Position numbers and translations under genes: made by a program. A stretch of 64,000 nt of DNA from Fundidesulfovibrio putealis DSM 16056 (GTDB lineage: Bacteria > Desulfobacterota > Desulfovibrionia > Desulfovibrionales > Desulfovibrionaceae). The stretch is from positions 647,958 to 711,957 of the forward strand of contig NZ_KE386885.1 of NCBI RefSeq assembly GCF_000429325.1, read 5' to 3'. Below are positions 11,617 through 45,918 of the stretch, piece by piece (position 1 is the first letter of the stretch; every line of letters starts with the position of its first letter). The notes beneath the pieces are model-generated. The model was not told the DNA's origin. It did no database searches and saw nothing but the letters and a program-made list of their open reading frames with translations.

Positions 11617-13629
11617 ATGCCCGTATCGCCGCGACTGTTTCTGAAACTCCTTCTCGTCTTTTGTCTGGCCTTTTCTGGCGCGTGCGCCAAGAAGCAGGTC
11701 TCCGACAACCAGGACATGAAGCCCAACCTCGATCCCGAGCTCTCCGACGATTTCCTCAAGATAAAACGCCCCAGGCCCCTGACCCTGCAGGAGAAGGAGG
11801 CCCTGGCCTCCAAGACCGACATCCCCTTCAACCTGGACGTTGCGGAGACCGAAGAGGTCCAGGCCTTCCTGACCTACTTCACCCAGGAGCGCCGCGAGAC
11901 CATGGAACGCTGGCTGGAGCGCGCCGCGCCGCACCTGCCCTACATCCGCGCCGTGCTGGCCACCCACAAGCTGCCCCCCGACATCATCGCGCTGCCCTTC
12001 ATCGAGTCCGGTTACAACACCATGGCCTACTCGCCGGTGGGCGCGGGCGGCATGTGGCAGTTCATGCCCGCCACTGGCCGCCGTTTCGGCCTCTCCGTCG
12101 ACTGGTGGGAGGACGAGCGCAGAAACCCCTATCTGGCCACCATCGCCGCCGCCAAATACCTGGGCGAGCTCTACAACATGTTCGGCGACTGGAACCTGGC
12201 CCTGGCCGCCTACAACTGCGGCGAAGGCAAGATGAGCCGCGTCATCAGCCAGTCCGGCCATACCAACTTTTTCGACATCGCCAAGAATCCCAACCTCCTC
12301 AAGCAGGAGACCCGCCACTACGTGCCCAAGTTCCTGGCCGTGCTCAAGGTGTTCAAGAACCTGAAGGCCCTGGGCTTCAAGCCGGTCAACTGGAGCGCCG
12401 GGCAGGTGCTTGAAGAGGTGCCCGTCCCCGGCGGCACCGACCTTGCCGCCCTGGCCGAGGCCTGCTCCATGAGCTGGGACGAGTTCCACAAGTACAACTC
12501 CGGTTTCCGCCGCCAGGTGAGCCCGCCGGACCGCGCAAGCCAGGTCTATGTGCCGGTCACCAAGAAGGAGCTGGCCCTGGCCTATCTTGCCAACCCCACC
12601 TGCGTGGCCAACCGGGGCATCCGCTCCTACACCACCGCCGGGACCGACTCCTGGTGGAACATTTCTAAGCGCACCGGAGTGCCCATCGCGGCGCTTCGCC
12701 AGATGAACCCCACCGTTGGCGACGCCGTGACCCCCGGCCAGACCGTGTACGTGCCCCTGGACAGCTCCGCCCAGGACTCCGCGCTGGCCGACCTGGACGA
12801 CAGGCCCGCCGGACGCGCTGAGGTGGCCAAGTCTCAGGTCCACAAGCTCAAGAAGGGCGAGAGCCTGGCCGCCCTGGCCAAGCAGTACGGCGTGTCCCAG
12901 ACGGACATCCTCAAGGCCAACAGCCTGAAATCCGAAAAGCAGCTGGCTGCGGGCAAGTCCATCACCATTCCCGGCAAGGCCGTTGCCGCAGGGGCCGCCT
13001 GTCCGCCCGTGCAGCCCAAGTCCGGCGTGGCCGTGGCCGAGGCCAAAACCGTGGAGGTCAAGAAGGGGCTCACCCTGGCCGCCGTGGCCGCCGCCAACAA
13101 GGTGGACGTGAAGACCCTGATGGCCGCCAACGGCATAAGCTCGGAGAAGGACCTCAAGGCCGGGATGAAGCTGAAGATTCCGGGCGAGGTGGCCTCCGCC
13201 CCTGTTGCGGCCCAGACCGCAGCGGCCAAGCAGCCCGAAGCCCCGGCCAAGAATCAGGCCCAGGCCGAGAAGCTGGCCGCCCTGGCCAAGAGCCAGCAGC
13301 CCGCGCCTCAGCCGGTCGCGCAGGCTCCTGCATCGTCCAAGGACCCCAAAGCCGCCCCCGCCCAGGCTGCCGCATCACCGGCCAAGGATGCCAAGGGCGC
13401 GCCCGTCCAGGTCGCTGCCGCCAAGAACCAGCCCTCGCCCGCACCAGCTCCCGCAAAGGACGCGCACAAGCCCAGCGGCCCCGTGCAGTACAAGGTGGAG
13501 AACGGCGAGACGGTCTGGAGCATCGCCCGCAAGTTCAAGGTGGACCCGGTGGCTCTTTTGAGCTGGAACAACCTGGACAAGTCCGTGCACCTGAAGCCGG
13601 GCGACAAACTGAAGATCAACGTGCAGTAG
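11617..13629 (+). CDS. mltD: MltD-like lytic transglycosylase with LysM repeats
   Basis: 670-residue outer-membrane lipoprotein. The signal peptide ends FSGAC (Cys23). The goose-lysozyme-like domain holds the catalytic Glu130 in IESGYN, followed by GAGGMWQFMPATGRRFGL and AAYNCGEGKMSRV. The C-terminal half carries LysM-type modules (around residues 407-450, 473-520 and 622-670, the last being VENGETVWSIARKFKV..LLSWNNL), separated by an Ala/Pro/Lys-rich linker of about 100 residues. It cleaves peptidoglycan glycan strands to anhydro-muropeptides. Slightly long for MltD because of the extra linker. Transcription ends at the hairpin at 13651. Confidence 0.92.
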   Translation: MPVSPRLFLKLLLVFCLAFSGACAKKQVSDNQDMKPNLDPELSDDFLKIKRPRPLTLQEKEALASKTDIPFNLDVAETEEVQAFLTYFTQERRETMERWLERAAPHLPYIRAVLATHKLPPDIIALPFIESGYNTMAYSPVGAGGMWQFMPATGRRFGLSVDWWEDERRNPYLATIAAAKYLGELYNMFGDWNLALAAYNCGEGKMSRVISQSGHTNFFDIAKNPNLLKQETRHYVPKFLAVLKVFKNLKALGFKPVNWSAGQVLEEVPVPGGTDLAALAEACSMSWDEFHKYNSGFRRQVSPPDRASQVYVPVTKKELALAYLANPTCVANRGIRSYTTAGTDSWWNISKRTGVPIAALRQMNPTVGDAVTPGQTVYVPLDSSAQDSALADLDDRPAGRAEVAKSQVHKLKKGESLAALAKQYGVSQTDILKANSLKSEKQLAAGKSITIPGKAVAAGAACPPVQPKSGVAVAEAKTVEVKKGLTLAAVAAANKVDVKTLMAANGISSEKDLKAGMKLKIPGEVASAPVAAQTAAAKQPEAPAKNQAQAEKLAALAKSQQPAPQPVAQAPASSKDPKAAPAQAAASPAKDAKGAPVQVAAAKNQPSPAPAPAKDAHKPSGPVQYKVENGETVWSIARKFKVDPVALLSWNNLDKSVHLKPGDKLKINVQ

Positions 13630-13650
13630 CGCGAGAGATTCTCGAACGAT

Positions 13651-13688
13651 AAAGGGCGCGCGCCGGACATCCGGCGCGCGCCCTTCGT
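13651..13688. terminator. Bidirectional terminator between mltD-like gene and ADH synthase
   Basis: A 15-bp perfect stem AAGGGCGCGCGCCGG / CCGGCGCGCGCCCTT with ACAT loop. A short T-rich tail follows on the plus strand and TTTAT on the minus strand. It lies between two convergent genes and can serve both. Confidence 0.85.
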
Positions 13689-13713
13689 TATTAAGGGGAG
13701 TGCTGTTGGCGTT

Positions 13714-14520
13714 CTATTCGCCCAGCCCTTCCAGGCCCTTCATGGCCTCGTCCACTTCCCAGCCGTCGTGCACGATCTTGCCCAGCGCCTGCAGAAGCCG
13801 CGTGGGGTCCTTGTGCTGGAAGATGTTGCGCCCGACCGAAAGGCCGGAGCCCCCGGCCTGCACCGAGTCGAACACCATGCGCAAAAAGTCCCTGGTGGTG
13901 GCGGTCTTGGGGCCGCCCGCGATCACCACGGGGATGCGCGCCCCGGCCACCACGGACGCGAACGACTCCGGGTCGCCCGTGTAGGGCACCTTCACCACGT
14001 CCGCGCCCAGCTCCATGCCCACGCGCGCGCAGTGCGCCACCACGTCCGGGGCGAATTCGTCCGTGATCTTGGGGCCGCGCCCGTAGACCATGGCCAGCAC
14101 CGGGATGCCCAGGCGGGCGGCGTCGCGGGTGATGCGGCCTGCGTCGGCCAGCATGTCGCGCTCGGAGTCGTCGCCCAGGTTCAGGTGCAGGCTCACGGCG
14201 TCCGCGCCCAGGTACACGGCCTCTTCCACGTCGCAGACCAGGGTCTTGGCGCCGGGGAAGGGCGAAAGCACGGTGGATGCCGACAAGTGTACGATAAGCC
14301 CGATGTCGCGCCCGCGCGCCCGGTGTCCGCAGGGGACCACGCCCTTGTGCATGAGCACGGCGTTGGCCCCGCCTTCCACGATGCGGGTGACCGTGTCTCG
14401 CATGTCGGTCAGGCCCGCGATGGGGCCTACGGTGACGCCGTGGTCCAGGGGGACGATGATGGCCCGGCCCGTGTCGCGGTTGAAGATGCGTTCGATGCGG
14501 ATGGTTTTGCCGATGTGCAT
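13714..14520 (-). CDS. 2-amino-3,7-dideoxy-D-threo-hept-6-ulosonate (ADH) synthase
   Basis: 268-residue class I aldolase of the DeoC/LacD/FbaB type. In methanogens and Desulfovibrio it makes the first intermediate of the alternative shikimate route, replacing DAHP synthase. Key residues are visible: Asp26/His27 in IVPLDHG, Tyr146 in VYGRGPK and the Schiff-base Lys177 in [14 protein letters not shown] chose the ATG at 14520 because AGGAGA precedes it; the ATG five codons earlier lacks one. Transcription passes a Phe/Tyr/Trp-rich leader ORF and a terminator first, so it is probably attenuated by aromatic amino acid supply. The partner DHQ synthase II is not in the window. A degenerate paralogue lies at 44958. 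Confidence 0.9.
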
Positions 14521-14570
14521 GGTGTTCTCCTGCATCCGTTTCCCGGGGGTGGAAGCCCGCTCCCGGCATG

Positions 14571-14605
14571 AAAAAGGGGCCGCGAACGTCTTCGTTCGCG
14601 GCCCC
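14571..14605 (-). terminator. Attenuator terminator in the ADH synthase leader
   Basis: A perfect 13-bp stem (GGGGCCGCGAACG with its complement) and 4-nt loop, followed on the minus strand by TTTTT. It stands between the leader ORF and the ADH synthase start, in the transcribed leader. The 5' arm GGCCGCG (14603-14597) can instead pair with CGUGGCC (14651-14645), which overlaps the Trp codon of the leader ORF; that would be the antiterminator. Confidence 0.88.
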
Positions 14606-14631
14606 GTGGAAAGGCGCTTCGTGTTGTGTTC

Positions 14632-14718
14632 CTACGATATGCCCGGCCACGTCCCGCGATTGCGGACGGCGTAGGAATAATAATACTGGGAAAAGTCGCG
14701 GGCAAGGTTCTTGCTCAT
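14632..14718 (-). CDS. Aromatic amino acid leader peptide (attenuator ORF)
   Basis: 28 codons read as MSKNLARDFSQYYYSYAV..., ending ...GTWPGIS. It holds one Phe, a YYYSY run (four Tyr in five codons) and one Trp, all products of the pathway begun by the downstream ADH synthase. The sequence CGUCCGCAAUCGCGGGACG inside it folds as a protector hairpin. CGUGGCC can pair with the terminator 5' arm. This is the classic ribosome-stalling attenuator layout. No Shine-Dalgarno precedes the ATG; a -35 box 31 nt upstream suggests the mRNA begins at or next to the ATG. An in-frame ATG six codons earlier is possible but would lie inside the promoter spacer. Confidence 0.8.
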   Translation of the reverse strand: MSKNLARDFSQYYYSYAVRNRGTWPGIS

Positions 14719-14727
14719 GGAAAAGGA

Positions 14728-14755
14728 TTTAGACATGCTGGCCCGGGCCTGTCAA
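14728..14755 (-). promoter_or_regulatory. Promoter of the aromatic leader / ADH synthase
   Basis: TTGACA (14755-14750), a 16-nt spacer, and TCTAAA (14733-14728, 4 of 6 to consensus). The start site would fall near 14721, only a few bases before the leader ATG at 14718. Confidence 0.6.
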
Positions 14756-14821
14756 GCCACAGGACCGGCCGGATATGCCGGAAAACGCAATCGGTCCAGG
14801 AGGCCGGACCCGGAGGAACGC

Positions 14822-15046
14822 ATGATAGTCACGGTTCGTTGTCTGGCTTCGCTGTCGCGGTTGCAGCCCGATCCCCCGCACATGGACTTCCCGGAGGGGG
14901 CGGTCCTGGCGGACGTCTACCAACGGCTGGGCCTCGCGCCTGACCCGGACGTGGTGGCCATCCTGGATGGCGGTCCGGCAAACCCGCTGACACCCTTGAA
15001 AAATGGCTGCGTGATCGAGCTTGTGCCAATGGTCGAGGGAGGTTGA
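14822..15046 (+). CDS. MoaD/ThiS-family sulfur carrier protein
   Basis: 74 residues with a beta-grasp pattern and the C-terminal Gly-Gly that is adenylated and thiocarboxylated in MoaD and ThiS. It sits 40 nt before moaA, so it is most likely the small subunit of molybdopterin synthase. The sequence is diverged and ends VPMVEGG. The ATG at 14822 follows CGGAGGAACGC; codons upstream in frame lie in the divergent promoter region of the aromatic leader. A MoeB/ThiF-type activating enzyme and MoaE are not in the window. Confidence 0.8.
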   Translation: MIVTVRCLASLSRLQPDPPHMDFPEGAVLADVYQRLGLAPDPDVVAILDGGPANPLTPLKNGCVIELVPMVEGG

Positions 15047-15086
15047 TCCCCTTTCCTTGATGGTGTTTTTGGCATAACATGACTCC

Positions 15087-16121
15087 ATGGAATCGCGCAC
15101 TGCACTTTCTTCCCGCCTGGATTCGCCCCGGCTGGCCGACAGCTTCGGACGCGTTGTCAACTATCTGCGGGTGAGCGTCACCGACCGCTGCAACCTGCGC
15201 TGCATGTATTGCCGCCCGGTGCAGGATTTCAAGGCCATCGAGCACTCCGACATCCTCTCCTACGAGGAGTACCTGCGGATAATAAAGCTGGCCGTTCCCC
15301 TGGGGCTCAGCAAGATCCGCCTCACCGGGGGCGAGCCCCTGGCGCGCCGGGGCTTCCACCGCTTCCTGGACGAGGTGATGAAGGCTGCGCCGGGCATGGA
15401 CGTGCGCCTGACCACCAACGGCACGCTGCTGGCCGGGCAGGCTAAAACGCTTGCGGGCCTTGGGCTCAAGGCCGTCAACATTTCGCTCGATTCGCTCGAC
15501 CCCGAGACCTTCCACCGCATCACCGGGGCGGACCTGTTCCATCAGGCGCGCAGCTCCATCGACGAGTGCCTGGAGGCCGGAATCCGCGTCAAGGTGAACG
15601 CCGTGGCCCTCAAGGGCCTGAACGACCACGAGCTGCCCGCCTTCCTGGAACTGGCCCGCACCCACCCCCTGGACATGCGCTTCATCGAGTTCATGCCCAT
15701 CGGCGGCGACACCCTGTGGGACGACACCCTGTACTGGCCCGCCTCGGACATCCTGGAGCGCGCCGGACAACTGGCCGAGCTCTCCCCGGTGGTTTACGGC
15801 GACGAGGGGCACGGCCCGGCCCGCATGTGGCAGATCGCGGGCGGCCAGGGCCGCCTGGGGGTGATCTCCGGGCTGTCCGGCCACTACTGCCTGACCTGCA
15901 ACCGCCTGCGCCTGACCTGTGACGGCAGGCTGCGCCCCTGCCTGTACTCCGACACCGAGTACCGGCTGCGCCCGCTTTTGCGCTCGGAGAAGTCCAGCGA
16001 CGGCAAGGTGCTGGAGGTGCTCAGGCGCGCGTTGGCGCGAAAGCCCATGGGGCACAAACTTCTGGCCGAGCGGGGCAGGCGCGGCGTGTGCGCCAAGTCC
16101 ATGACCTCCATCGGGGGATGA
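15087..16121 (+). CDS. moaA: GTP 3',8-cyclase MoaA
   Basis: 344 residues. The radical SAM cluster motif CNLRCMYC (Cys35, 39, 42) is near the N terminus. A second 4Fe-4S site is formed by CLTCNRLRLTCDGRLRPC in the C-terminal part, and the chain ends SMTSIGG, the catalytic Gly-Gly tail specific to MoaA. It converts GTP to 3',8-cyclo-7,8-dihydro-GTP, the first step of molybdopterin synthesis. Length is normal. It lies between the MoaD-like gene and moeA in one operon. Confidence 0.97.
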   Translation: MESRTALSSRLDSPRLADSFGRVVNYLRVSVTDRCNLRCMYCRPVQDFKAIEHSDILSYEEYLRIIKLAVPLGLSKIRLTGGEPLARRGFHRFLDEVMKAAPGMDVRLTTNGTLLAGQAKTLAGLGLKAVNISLDSLDPETFHRITGADLFHQARSSIDECLEAGIRVKVNAVALKGLNDHELPAFLELARTHPLDMRFIEFMPIGGDTLWDDTLYWPASDILERAGQLAELSPVVYGDEGHGPARMWQIAGGQGRLGVISGLSGHYCLTCNRLRLTCDGRLRPCLYSDTEYRLRPLLRSEKSSDGKVLEVLRRALARKPMGHKLLAERGRRGVCAKSMTSIGG

Positions 16122-16124
16122 CGC

Positions 16125-17363
16125 GTGGAAAAGGGCTTTCTCGATCTCATTTCGTCCGACGCTTTCCGTGAACTCCTGGCGGGCTTTCCCCCGCTTGAGG
16201 CAGAGACCGTCCCGCTGGAGGCGGCGCTTGGGCGTTACCTGGCCCATGACCTGCTCTCCCCTGAGGACCTGCCGGTGTTCGCCCGCTCCAGCATGGACGG
16301 CTTCGCCGTGCGCGCCGCCGACTGCTACGGCGCCACCGAGACCAACCCCGGCTACCTTGACCTGGCTGGCGATCTGGACATCACCGCCGTGTCCGCCGAG
16401 ACGCTTCGTCCCGGCTGCTGCGTGCGCGTGGTCACCGGTTCGAGCCTGCCGCCCGGTGCGGACGCCGTGGTCATGGTGGAGCAGACCCAGGATCTGGGCG
16501 CGGACACCATCGAGATCAGGAAGGCCGTGGCCCCCGGCGAGAACATGATGCAGGCCCGCGAGGACGCCGCCGCCGGGCAGGCCGTGCTGTCCGCCGGGAC
16601 GCTCATCCGGCCTGCCGAGACCGGACTTCTGGCGGCGCTTGGCGTGGGCTCCGTGCCGGTGCGCAGGCGGCCCGTGGTGGCCATCCTGTCCACCGGGGAC
16701 GAGCTGGTGCCGGTCTCCGGCAAGCCGCGCCCCGGCCAGATCCGCGACGCCAACGCCCCGGCCCTGGCCGCCATGTGCGTGCAGTCCGGGGCGGTTCCCT
16801 TGTGCATGGGCATCGTGCCGGACCGGGTGGAGGCCATCGCCGAGGCGCTCACGCTGGCTCTCAGCAAGGCCGATGTGGTCTTTTTGTCGGGCGGAAGCTC
16901 GGTCGGCGTGCGCGATCTGACCATCGAGGCCCTGTCCCATCTGCCGGACACCACCGTGCTGGCCCACGGGTTGACCGTGAGCCCGGGCAAGCCCACCATC
17001 CTGGCGCGCTCCGGCAACAAGGCCATCTGGGGCCTGCCGGGCCAGACCGCCTCGGCCCAGGTGGTCATGTTCGTGTTCGGTTGTCCTTTTCTCTCCCACC
17101 TCGCGGGCGACGCCCAGGCGTTTTGCAGGCCGCGCCCCGAAATCCAGGCCGTGCTCTCACGCAACGTGGCCTCGCGCCAGGGGCGCGAGGATTTCGTGCG
17201 CGTTCGCCTGGAAACAAACGGAGGCGGTTCTGCCAAGGCCGTCCCGGTGCTCGGCAAGTCCGGTTTGCTGAAAACCCTGGTTCAGGCCCAGGGCCTCATC
17301 CGTATCCCGGCCGGCCTCGAAGGCCTGGAGGCCGGCAGCACAATTCAGGTGACGCTGCTATGA
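16125..17363 (+). CDS. moeA: Molybdopterin molybdenumtransferase MoeA
   Basis: 412 residues. Motifs include PVFARSSMDGFAVRAAD, GADAVVMVEQT, STGDEL and the GGSSVG loop, followed by the domain IV beta barrel. MoeA inserts molybdate into adenylylated molybdopterin. It starts at a GTG three bases after the moaA stop, preceded by GGGGGA. Its stop overlaps the start of a second MoeA-like gene (ATGA), so both are made from one message. Confidence 0.95.
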   Translation: MEKGFLDLISSDAFRELLAGFPPLEAETVPLEAALGRYLAHDLLSPEDLPVFARSSMDGFAVRAADCYGATETNPGYLDLAGDLDITAVSAETLRPGCCVRVVTGSSLPPGADAVVMVEQTQDLGADTIEIRKAVAPGENMMQAREDAAAGQAVLSAGTLIRPAETGLLAALGVGSVPVRRRPVVAILSTGDELVPVSGKPRPGQIRDANAPALAAMCVQSGAVPLCMGIVPDRVEAIAEALTLALSKADVVFLSGGSSVGVRDLTIEALSHLPDTTVLAHGLTVSPGKPTILARSGNKAIWGLPGQTASAQVVMFVFGCPFLSHLAGDAQAFCRPRPEIQAVLSRNVASRQGREDFVRVRLETNGGGSAKAVPVLGKSGLLKTLVQAQGLIRIPAGLEGLEAGSTIQVTLL

Positions 17364-44957: not shown

Positions 44958-45809
44958 CTATTCCTGCGGGATCACGCCCGTTTCTGCTTCCGGCAGAGCG
45001 CCGGAGGCGGGTTCGGTTTCCGCGTCAGCCGACAGGGGATCATCCCCGGCGCGCATGCCGTGCACCATGTTCACCAAAAGCTCCAGGGCTTCGCCCGGAT
45101 CGGGGTTCTGGAAGATGTTTCGCCCCACGCACAGCCCCGCCGCGCCGCAGCGCAGGGCCTCGTCCATGGCCGAGAGGAACCGGGGGAAGTCGCCGCGTCC
45201 GGGGCCGCCCGTCACCAGCACGGGTGTGGCCGAGGCGTCCACTGCCTCGGCAAAGCTTACGGGGTCGCCGCTGTAGGGCACGCCGATGAGGTCCGCGCCA
45301 AGCTCCGCGCCCAGGCGGATGCAGTGGGAGATGAGGCTCGGGTCCATCTCGTTGACGATGTGCCCGCCGCGCGGGGCGATGATGGCGAACACGGGCAACC
45401 CGGCCAGATGGGCTTCGTCGGCCATGGCCCCGAAGTCGGCCAGCATCCGCTCTTCCAGATCGTTGCCGACATTGATCTGGAGGCTGACGGCGTCCGCGCC
45501 CAGGCGCAGGGCCTCGCCCACCGAGCAGACCACGGTGCGCCCGTAGGGGGGCAGGGCGTGCTTGGTGCCGCCGGAGAGCTGAACGATCACGTTGACCGAA
45601 AGGGGCAGGTCGGCCCCGTGCACCCGGGCCGGACCTTTGTTCAGCACCACGCCCTGCACGTTTCTTCCGTCCAGCATGCCAAGCAGCACGGAGATGGCCT
45701 CCAGGCCCGGCAGCATGCCTTCGCCAACGCCGTGATCCAGGGGAAGGATGACGGCCCTGCCGCTTGACGGATCGAAGAGGCGGCCCAATCTGCGATAGAT
45801 TCCGGTCAT
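44958..45809 (-). CDS. ADH-synthase/FbaB-like aldolase paralogue lacking catalytic residues
   Basis: 283 residues aligning along its length with the ADH synthase of 13714-14520 (LPLDHGVGEG, GADAVSLQINVGND, LGAELGADLIGVPYSGDP, GRNIFQNPDP). At the position of the Schiff-base Lys177 it has Gly176, and Ala145 replaces the acid-base Tyr146; Asp25/His26 remain. It should not work as a class I aldolase. The fold and phosphate site are intact. Start 45809 has AGAGGT 7 nt upstream; longer in-frame readings add a non-homologous basic stretch. Possible non-catalytic regulator, or an enzyme with changed chemistry. Confidence 0.85.
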   Translation of the reverse strand: MTGIYRRLGRLFDPSSGRAVILPLDHGVGEGMLPGLEAISVLLGMLDGRNVQGVVLNKGPARVHGADLPLSVNVIVQLSGGTKHALPPYGRTVVCSVGEALRLGADAVSLQINVGNDLEERMLADFGAMADEAHLAGLPVFAIIAPRGGHIVNEMDPSLISHCIRLGAELGADLIGVPYSGDPVSFAEAVDASATPVLVTGGPGRGDFPRFLSAMDEALRCGAAGLCVGRNIFQNPDPGEALELLVNMVHGMRAGDDPLSADAETEPASGALPEAETGVIPQE

Positions 45810-45918
45810 GTCCATACCTCTGCGCGTCTGGTGGAAATTGTAGATCCTGTCCGGCGCGGGCGCGCTCTTGGCGGCCTGGCGGAGTCTGGTTCGCGGCATC
45901 ACGTTTCTGATCATGTCC

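Follow-up and report, generated by a model that had tools for sequence, protein, structure and literature searches.

What controls the stand-alone ADH synthase gene of Fundidesulfovibrio putealis DSM 16056, and to which amino acid would its leader respond? The gene lies in a 64,000-nucleotide stretch of contig NZ_KE386885.1 (positions 647,958 to 711,957, hereafter the window). ADH (2-amino-3,7-dideoxy-D-threo-hept-6-ulosonate) synthase is the first enzyme of the alternative aromatic amino acid pathway, the alternative entry to shikimate. A first-pass annotation had placed a 28-codon ORF with Phe, a YYYSY run and Trp, followed by a perfect 13-bp hairpin and U5, ahead of this gene, and the coordinates of all these elements were confirmed. 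The identity of the gene was also borne out: its product scored 369.3 bits against TIGR01949 in a profile search (cut-off 299.45), and its best PDB match was MJ0400 (307.7 bits), in an alignment that spans the gene's length and retains the lysine of the VK-YTGD motif, which we take to be the catalytic residue. The start codon, ATG 14520, sits behind the Shine-Dalgarno sequence AGGAG (14531-14527); the first in-frame ATG is at 14535. No same-strand match to aroB2, pheA, aroA, tyrA or trpE was found in the 6 kb downstream of the gene. Upstream, the order on the minus strand is TTGACA, TAAATC, leader ORF and terminator:

13714-14520, minus strand: ADH synthase, stand-alone copy, start ATG 14520
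11617-13629: LysM/SLT gene, convergent with ADH synthase
14822 onward, plus strand: ThiS-family protein (molybdopterin gene), the divergent upstream neighbour of ADH synthase
15087-16121: moaA (molybdopterin gene), divergent from ADH synthase
14750-14755, minus strand: -35 box TTGACA, at a conserved distance from the leader ATG
14726-14731, minus strand: weak -10 element TAAATC, 18-nt spacer, ending 7 nt before the leader ATG
14632-14718, minus strand: ORF for the leader peptide MSKNLARDFSQYYYSYAVRNRGTWPGIS, 28 codons from ATG 14718 to TAG 14632, without a Shine-Dalgarno sequence
14671-14685, minus strand: regulatory codon run TAT TAT TAT TCC TAC (YYYSY), a Tyr-rich cluster present in all 18 closest copies
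14576-14605, minus strand: intrinsic terminator hairpin GGGGCCGCGAACG-aaga-CGTTCGCGGCCCC, 13 of 13 pairs, loop AAGA
14571-14575, minus strand: terminator U-tract TTTTT (U5), read from the sequence

The leader peptide carries F at codon 9, four Y, and W at codon 24; an alternative in-frame ATG at 14736 would extend it to 34 codons. The hairpin was considered as the terminator of an upstream gene, which was ruled out by the divergent orientation of the upstream neighbour. A riboswitch, T-box or known leader family was ruled out for want of an Rfam match: window positions 12000-17000 gave two matches with E up to 1, both to unrelated families and far under the gathering scores, and 12 related loci (45,091 bases) gave none at the gathering score. 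The Rfam entries relevant to such a leader are presumably Trp_leader, Phe_leader, T-box and the riboswitches.

Upstream regions of ADH synthase genes were compared across the genome itself and its relatives. We took 88 regions, at matches of at least 54% identity apart from one of 48%, excluding lower-identity DeoC paralogs, and the 94 ADH synthase matches of the survey represent 90 unique copies in 56 genomes. A leader was scored where a terminator lay within 140 nt of the gene and an ORF with at least four F/Y/W in 10 codons ended shortly before that terminator. Such leaders preceded 71 of the 90 copies, or 72 with L040 (YYCY), which was admitted by hand; 18 copies had none (19 by the strict rule). 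Applied to 10 dinucleotide-shuffled versions of the 90 regions, the rule picked out no more than one per set (0-1 of 90), and of 900 windows drawn at random from these loci it accepted 3. Leader and terminator thus occur ahead of ADH synthase more often than by chance. At least one leader-bearing copy was present in 55 of the 56 genomes with ADH synthase, the exception (G027) being 67% complete. These counts are lower bounds, since Nitratidesulfovibrio leaders, situated about 300-410 nt upstream, escaped a search limited to 330 nt; in two species of this genus, which we take to be the one now holding D. vulgaris, the leader MLSTSATFTTAYRTNYYFWYFFSYGEARGRMERA and a GGCCGCGGGC hairpin precede the only ADH synthase copy found.

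Confinement of the arrangement to Desulfovibrionales was considered and rejected, as leaders with terminators were found in other groups (80 named loci): Desulfobotulus (L181), Desulfobacterales or Desulfobacteraceae MAGs (L178, L159), Desulfofervidaceae (L187), a Deferribacteres MAG (L185) and two further bacteria (L179, L180). In L179, L180, L185 and L187 the hairpin arms are different (GGCCATGG, GGCCGTGG), and the design reaches past Desulfovibrionales. By the same rule no leader was found in Desulfobacterales MAGs L163 and L177, in the four Aquificota loci whose upstream DNA was long enough (L188, a fifth, offers 94 nt) or in 24 archaeal loci. A regulon scan of the genome itself with the exact pattern GGCCGCNGGC-loop-GCCNGCGGCC, which is narrow and misses the window's own hairpin, matched two places only: the operonic ADH synthase leader, and an apparently ordinary intergenic terminator on another contig.

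The promoter elements were examined in the same set. TTGAC(A) started 35-40 nt 5' of the leader ATG in 62 of 72 leaders and 53-65 nt in nine, with none in one, and in the window's clade it lay 36-37 nt before the ATG in 18 of 18 (window counted). The T and A of the -10 box, at +24 and +25 from the -35 start, were kept in 53/71 and 61/71 respectively. The leader ATG had been picked partly by its distance from the -35 box, and the cleaner set is the 49 leaders with one in-frame ATG, of which 36 have an exact TTGACA at 35-40 nt. A Shine-Dalgarno-like word preceded 12 of 71 leader ATGs, compared with 65 of 71 ADH synthase starts. The mRNA seems to be leaderless: its predicted start is the A of the leader AUG, give or take about 1 nt. 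The window's Tyr codons TATTAT also overlap a sigma-70-like match (14677-14705, minus strand), and a second start within the leader is possible.

To ask which amino acid is sensed, we turned to the closest copies. Of 159 family genomes (own included), 18 hold a close counterpart of the window's copy (E up to 1e-122). Clustered Tyr codons, ranging from YCYSY and YYCY through YYYYY, and a terminator (judged by eye) are present in every one of these copies, the window counted. Five of the sequences are near copies (L229/L231 and L234-L236), and the 42-codon leader of L230, with QYFSYPYYY, is atypical. Trp is absent from L225, L229, L040, L042 and others of this Tyr clade, as well as from L107, which represents a second origin of the Tyr type; Phe is absent from L038, L224 and L228. 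TAT makes up 53 of 77 Tyr codons in the 18 leaders vs 2 of 39 in their ADH synthase genes. Because Tyr is constant in the 18 copies, Phe and Trp are not, and TAT is enriched, the best interpretation of the window's leader is that it senses Tyr, and most likely tyrosine alone. In L232, which reads FFYCYSY, Phe may count as well.

Two candidate antiterminator strands can be drawn in the window, one in a register homologous among relatives and one proposed in the first-pass annotation:

14654-14659, minus strand: antiterminator 5' strand UCGCGG, homologous register, pairing with CCGCGA at 14601-14596
14645-14651, minus strand: alternative antiterminator strand CGUGGCC, pairing with GGCCGCG at 14603-14597

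In the window species only 6 bp are left of the homologous helix. Its UCGCGG strand lies 8 nt upstream of the alternative strand, whose duplex with GGCCGCG has seven pairs, one of them G-U. The window's best antiterminator duplex came to -16.1 kcal/mol vs -14.8 for shuffles (p 0.29; another shuffle test, p 0.106), and its terminator to -28.2 kcal/mol. Duplex energies were computed for 13 of the 72 leaders and gave p > 0.05 in eight of them (the window's, L037-L040, L042, L044 and L107). As the window's own duplex is no better than shuffles, the case for its antiterminator rests on conservation.

That conservation was measured on A2, an alignment of 14 of the 18 Tyr leaders; the near copies L231, L235 and L236 were left out, as was L230, which does not have the RG segment. 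In the homologous register 88.9% of cells were paired, nine cells were compensatory and covariation was 0.283, each as high in 0 of 500 shuffles, and slid versions of the register had 34-45% paired. Two of the five measures fell within the shuffles (both-side-change pairs, of which there were two, 172/500; further pair types, 499/500), and 14 related sequences are few for covariation. By comparison, the alternative register, drawable as it is in the window, showed no compensatory change in relatives and was paired in 64.1% of cells; its 7-bp helix may stand in for the shrunken homologous helix in the window species. Terminator covariation on the same 14 leaders was 0.294, with 0 of 500 shuffles as high. 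The check proposed with the first-pass annotation, for conservation across Desulfovibrionales, came out positive. The annotation had also drawn a protector stem, CGUCCGC/GCGGGACG, with seven pairs and one bulged G. It can indeed be formed in the window, but a protector (1:2) candidate, CCGC-NNTC-GCGG, was visible by eye only in the six sequences of the window's genus.

For a more general view of the antiterminator we compared the whole family. The aromatic run is followed in most leaders by codons resembling A-C-G (GCC TGT GGY), a strand that pairs with the terminator 5' arm (GGCCGCAGGC). At a pivot base, the first after GGCCGC, tabulated for 70 of the 72 rows (L101 and L116 do not have the anchor), the leader and the arm form Watson-Crick pairs in 63 of 70 (U-A 41, C-G 15, A-U 7) and U-G pairs in a further three. 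Permutation with the leader site re-chosen gave a mean of 34.8 Watson-Crick pairs and a maximum of 48 in 2000 permutations. With the site fixed the mean was 33.0 and the maximum 44, a flattering comparison in that the pairing site is not re-chosen. The 50 leaders with a single candidate site had 44 pairs vs a mean of 22.6 and a maximum of 33; all of these permutations leave the relatedness of the sequences in place. Within the terminator, the pivot base is Watson-Crick paired in 16/70 and non-pairing in 47/70 (A.G in 32). The terminator arm therefore fits the leader at the hairpin's cost, which is hard to explain without an antiterminator.

The spacing of the leader elements fits ribosome control. 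The last aromatic codon lies 8-12 nt from the pairing strand in 59 of 70 leaders (a count that uses the alternative register for the window, L036 and L037); the median distance is 25 nt from the pairing core to the end of the stop codon, and 29 nt from the stop to GGCCGC. Given the size of the ribosome footprint, a ribosome stalled on the run would stand at or just upstream of the pairing strand, and one at the stop codon would overlap it in the main class. The A.G mismatch noted above at the leader-pairing base (32/70) recurs in the terminator stems of operonic leaders, for example L048.

Leader codons were next set against gene content. In the operonic class, ADH synthase is followed by DHQ synthase II, usually by pheA, aroA and tyrA, and often by trp; the genome's own operonic copy (L035) belongs to an operon that includes trpE. 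Operonic leaders contain Phe and Tyr, mostly with Trp, and occur in 53 of 57 operonic rows; each of the four leader-free rows is the second copy of a tandem pair. With trpE in the operon, the leader run has Trp in 42 of 42 cases, vs four of nine with no trpE there (Fisher 5e-5), or five of nine if Trp anywhere in the peptide is counted (Fisher 5e-4); kinship is not corrected for in these tests, the cases without Trp make up about two tree groups, and the table leaves out L046 and L096, whose operons lie at contig ends. In L093, L100, L101 and L086 (genomes G015, G019, G020 and G026), a tandem ADH synthase pair heads the operon with a leader on the first copy only, and the tree places the second copies well apart from the first.

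Of the nine genomes without trpE in the operon, six (G007, G011, G012, G024, G031 and G037) have it elsewhere, as does G022, where ADH synthase is not operonic. At all seven detached trpE loci a WW/WWW ORF and then a T-tailed hairpin were seen upstream of trpE (by eye, without a control), the ORF being about 1.1 kb upstream in G007. At L124 and L129 (G037 and G022), two tandem Trp-leader ORFs with T-tailed hairpins precede trpE. No Trp leader was found upstream of trpE at the G010 locus, where trpE sits behind an apparent tyrA and the first part of the operon runs off the contig end; this trpE probably belongs to the operon. No trpE was detected at E up to 1e-40 in the other three of the nine, G009 (89% complete), G014 (95%) and G017 (83%). 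G050 also gave no trpE match and keeps Trp in its leader, the operon being cut by the contig end, and G016 matched neither trpE nor ADH synthase. These five, out of 13 genomes searched, are possible Trp auxotrophs or incomplete genomes.

Stand-alone copies numbered 33, of which 19 have a leader: nine of Tyr type, six of Phe type (for example FFFFFFF in L088 and FFFFSFFY in L065) and four others (L044, L071, L113 and L116, with L071 and L113 near contig ends), the Tyr and Phe labels being assigned by eye. By the survey rule the remaining 14 are leader-free (L055, L063, L070, L074, L075, L076, L079, L080, L082, L084, L092, L094, L102 and L121). A quick protein tree needs two origins for the Tyr type and two for the Phe type, with supports of 93 and 92 for the larger clades. 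We think it likely that in Desulfovibrionales the aromatic entry is shared among ADH synthase isozymes, many of them told apart by leader type (Tyr, Phe or Phe/Tyr/Trp), with codons gained and lost with operon membership, the Tyr and Phe types each arisen at least twice, and leaderless translation of the leader.

The proposal of a ribosome-type attenuator ahead of ADH synthase is supported by this conservation and covariation, and it is very probable that the window element is a tyrosine-specific, ribosome-mediated transcription attenuator of the gene, with ribosome stalling and a response to tyrosine as its presumed working steps. The first-pass annotation had instead proposed a multi-amino-acid attenuator, in which the Phe, Tyr and Trp codons of this leader would all count. 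The peptide does hold F, four Y and W, the operonic paralogs are truly mixed, and FFYCYSY occurs within the Tyr clade itself (L232). However, F and W come and go in that clade (no F in L038, no W in L040 or L042) while Tyr stays, L107 from the second Tyr origin also has no W, and the window's own W codon lies 3' of the stall run, within the alternative antiterminator strand. The mixed Phe/Tyr/Trp design is that of the operonic copy, and for the window's leader we regard it as unlikely.

It could also be that leader RNA and terminator do not form a sensor, and either set a fixed low level of expression or supply an RNA or peptide acting in trans, as in the case of the S. meliloti trp leader. 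For that attenuator leader, which is leaderless, trans functions are described in the available text of PMC7298713, and the window's antiterminator is weak. Against this, codon content tracks gene content, which points to a switch, and at the pivot the antiterminator covaries rather than the terminator; we consider a non-sensor very unlikely, and a trans role could coexist with a switch. Finally, a promoter inside the leader (TTGCCC at 14705 to TATTAT at 14677, 17-nt spacer, minus strand) would make the ORF an accident of a -10 box and the hairpin a leftover. This is the sole sigma-70-like match in 13600-15200 (9/12 positions; shuffles average 0.2 matches), and it would yield transcripts without the leader ORF. 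Such an explanation is scarcely credible given the upstream TTGAC(A) at a fixed distance from the ATG in 18 of 18 copies, and a reading frame and Tyr codons conserved across diverged sequences.

Conservation, covariation, the match of codons with gene content and promoter spacing are all apparent from comparison of the copies, and from them we infer the transcription start, the stalling of the ribosome and the response to tyrosine. In the tyrosine attenuator so proposed, RNA polymerase would begin transcription at the leader AUG, to within about 1 nt, and a ribosome would load onto the leaderless end and trail the polymerase. When Tyr-tRNA is short, the ribosome would stall on the YYYSY codons and free UCGCGG just downstream, which could then pair with the terminator's 5' arm; with UCGCGG so paired, the terminator would be unable to form and ADH synthase would be transcribed. 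When tyrosine is plentiful, the ribosome would cover UCGCGG on its way toward the stop codon, the hairpin would form and transcription would end. Once the ribosome has passed, the strand could also be sequestered, in the window's genus, by a small CCGC/GCGG hairpin. Judging by the ribosome's footprint, UCGCGG would already be just clear of a ribosome that has reached the window's stop codon, and this genus-specific hairpin may therefore matter in the window. The window's leader would be one of a modular set, in which operonic leaders carry Phe/Tyr (mostly with Trp), stand-alone leaders mostly Tyr or Phe, and detached trp leaders Trp. The weak window helix, the poor -10 box and the leader-free stand-alone copies (14/33) were counted against the proposal.

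Attenuators of the trp, his and pheA type comprise an ORF with regulatory codons, a terminator, and an antiterminator that shares the terminator's 5' arm. The leader described here is like them in its short ORF with regulatory codons, its terminator and a putative antiterminator using the terminator's 5' arm. Unlike them, it would control an ADH synthase isozyme and has its pairing strand within the leader ORF; no general 1:2 protector came to light, and its start is predicted to be leaderless. Ribosome-mediated attenuators of amino acid operons are mentioned in the available text of PMC5343134 and PMC1262725. The S. meliloti trpL leader, as far as described in the text available of PMC7298713, is leaderless and SD-free, with its ORF at the 5' end of the transcript and a terminated leader RNA, all of which resembles the arrangement predicted here. 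It differs in sensing Trp, in controlling trpE(G) and in its reported trans roles, whereas the present leader is a putative Tyr sensor for ADH synthase. Aromatic leader peptides before the first enzyme of the pathway are also found in C. glutamicum (aroF, a leader with FYF; PMC4046766) and in Acholeplasma (uORFC-13-1, with Phe; PMC8632094). These precede DAHP synthase, in other bacteria, and no isozyme-by-isozyme specialization is described in the parts of those papers available.

The first-pass annotation knew of no described attenuator for ADH synthase, a statement that needs amending. A putative attenuator before the D. vulgaris aroA'-aroB'-aroQ-pheA-aroF-tyrA-[trp] supraoperon was listed in 2005, from a web database (Table 7 of PMC1173090). 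It concerns the same enzyme (aroA') in the same bacterial order, and corresponds to the operonic class found here; the listing, in the text available, covers one genome, names no leader peptide and does not mention stand-alone Tyr- or Phe-type copies. The word Desulfovibrio is absent from the main text of PMC2965389. No report of leaders of stand-alone ADH synthase isozymes was found in the open PMC literature, most subscription papers lying beyond its scope. The stand-alone leaders may be new, the operonic-class attenuator having already been listed as putative.

Isozyme-specific leaders may be viewed as the leader-peptide counterpart of the AroF/AroG/AroH division of labour in E. coli. They offer a model of regulation at the alternative shikimate entry for bacteria outside the gammaproteobacteria, to which TrpR and TyrR are confined according to the available text of PMC5343134. 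They also amount to a natural experiment, the leader codons varying with operon content, would allow the amino acid of an isozyme to be predicted from DNA alone, and form a clean set for the study of attenuation on leaderless mRNAs. Besides its stand-alone isozyme, the window encodes a diverged ADH-synthase-like DeoC aldolase (44958-45914, minus strand), with 40% identity and a score of 206.4 bits, under the TIGR01949 cut-off of 299.45.
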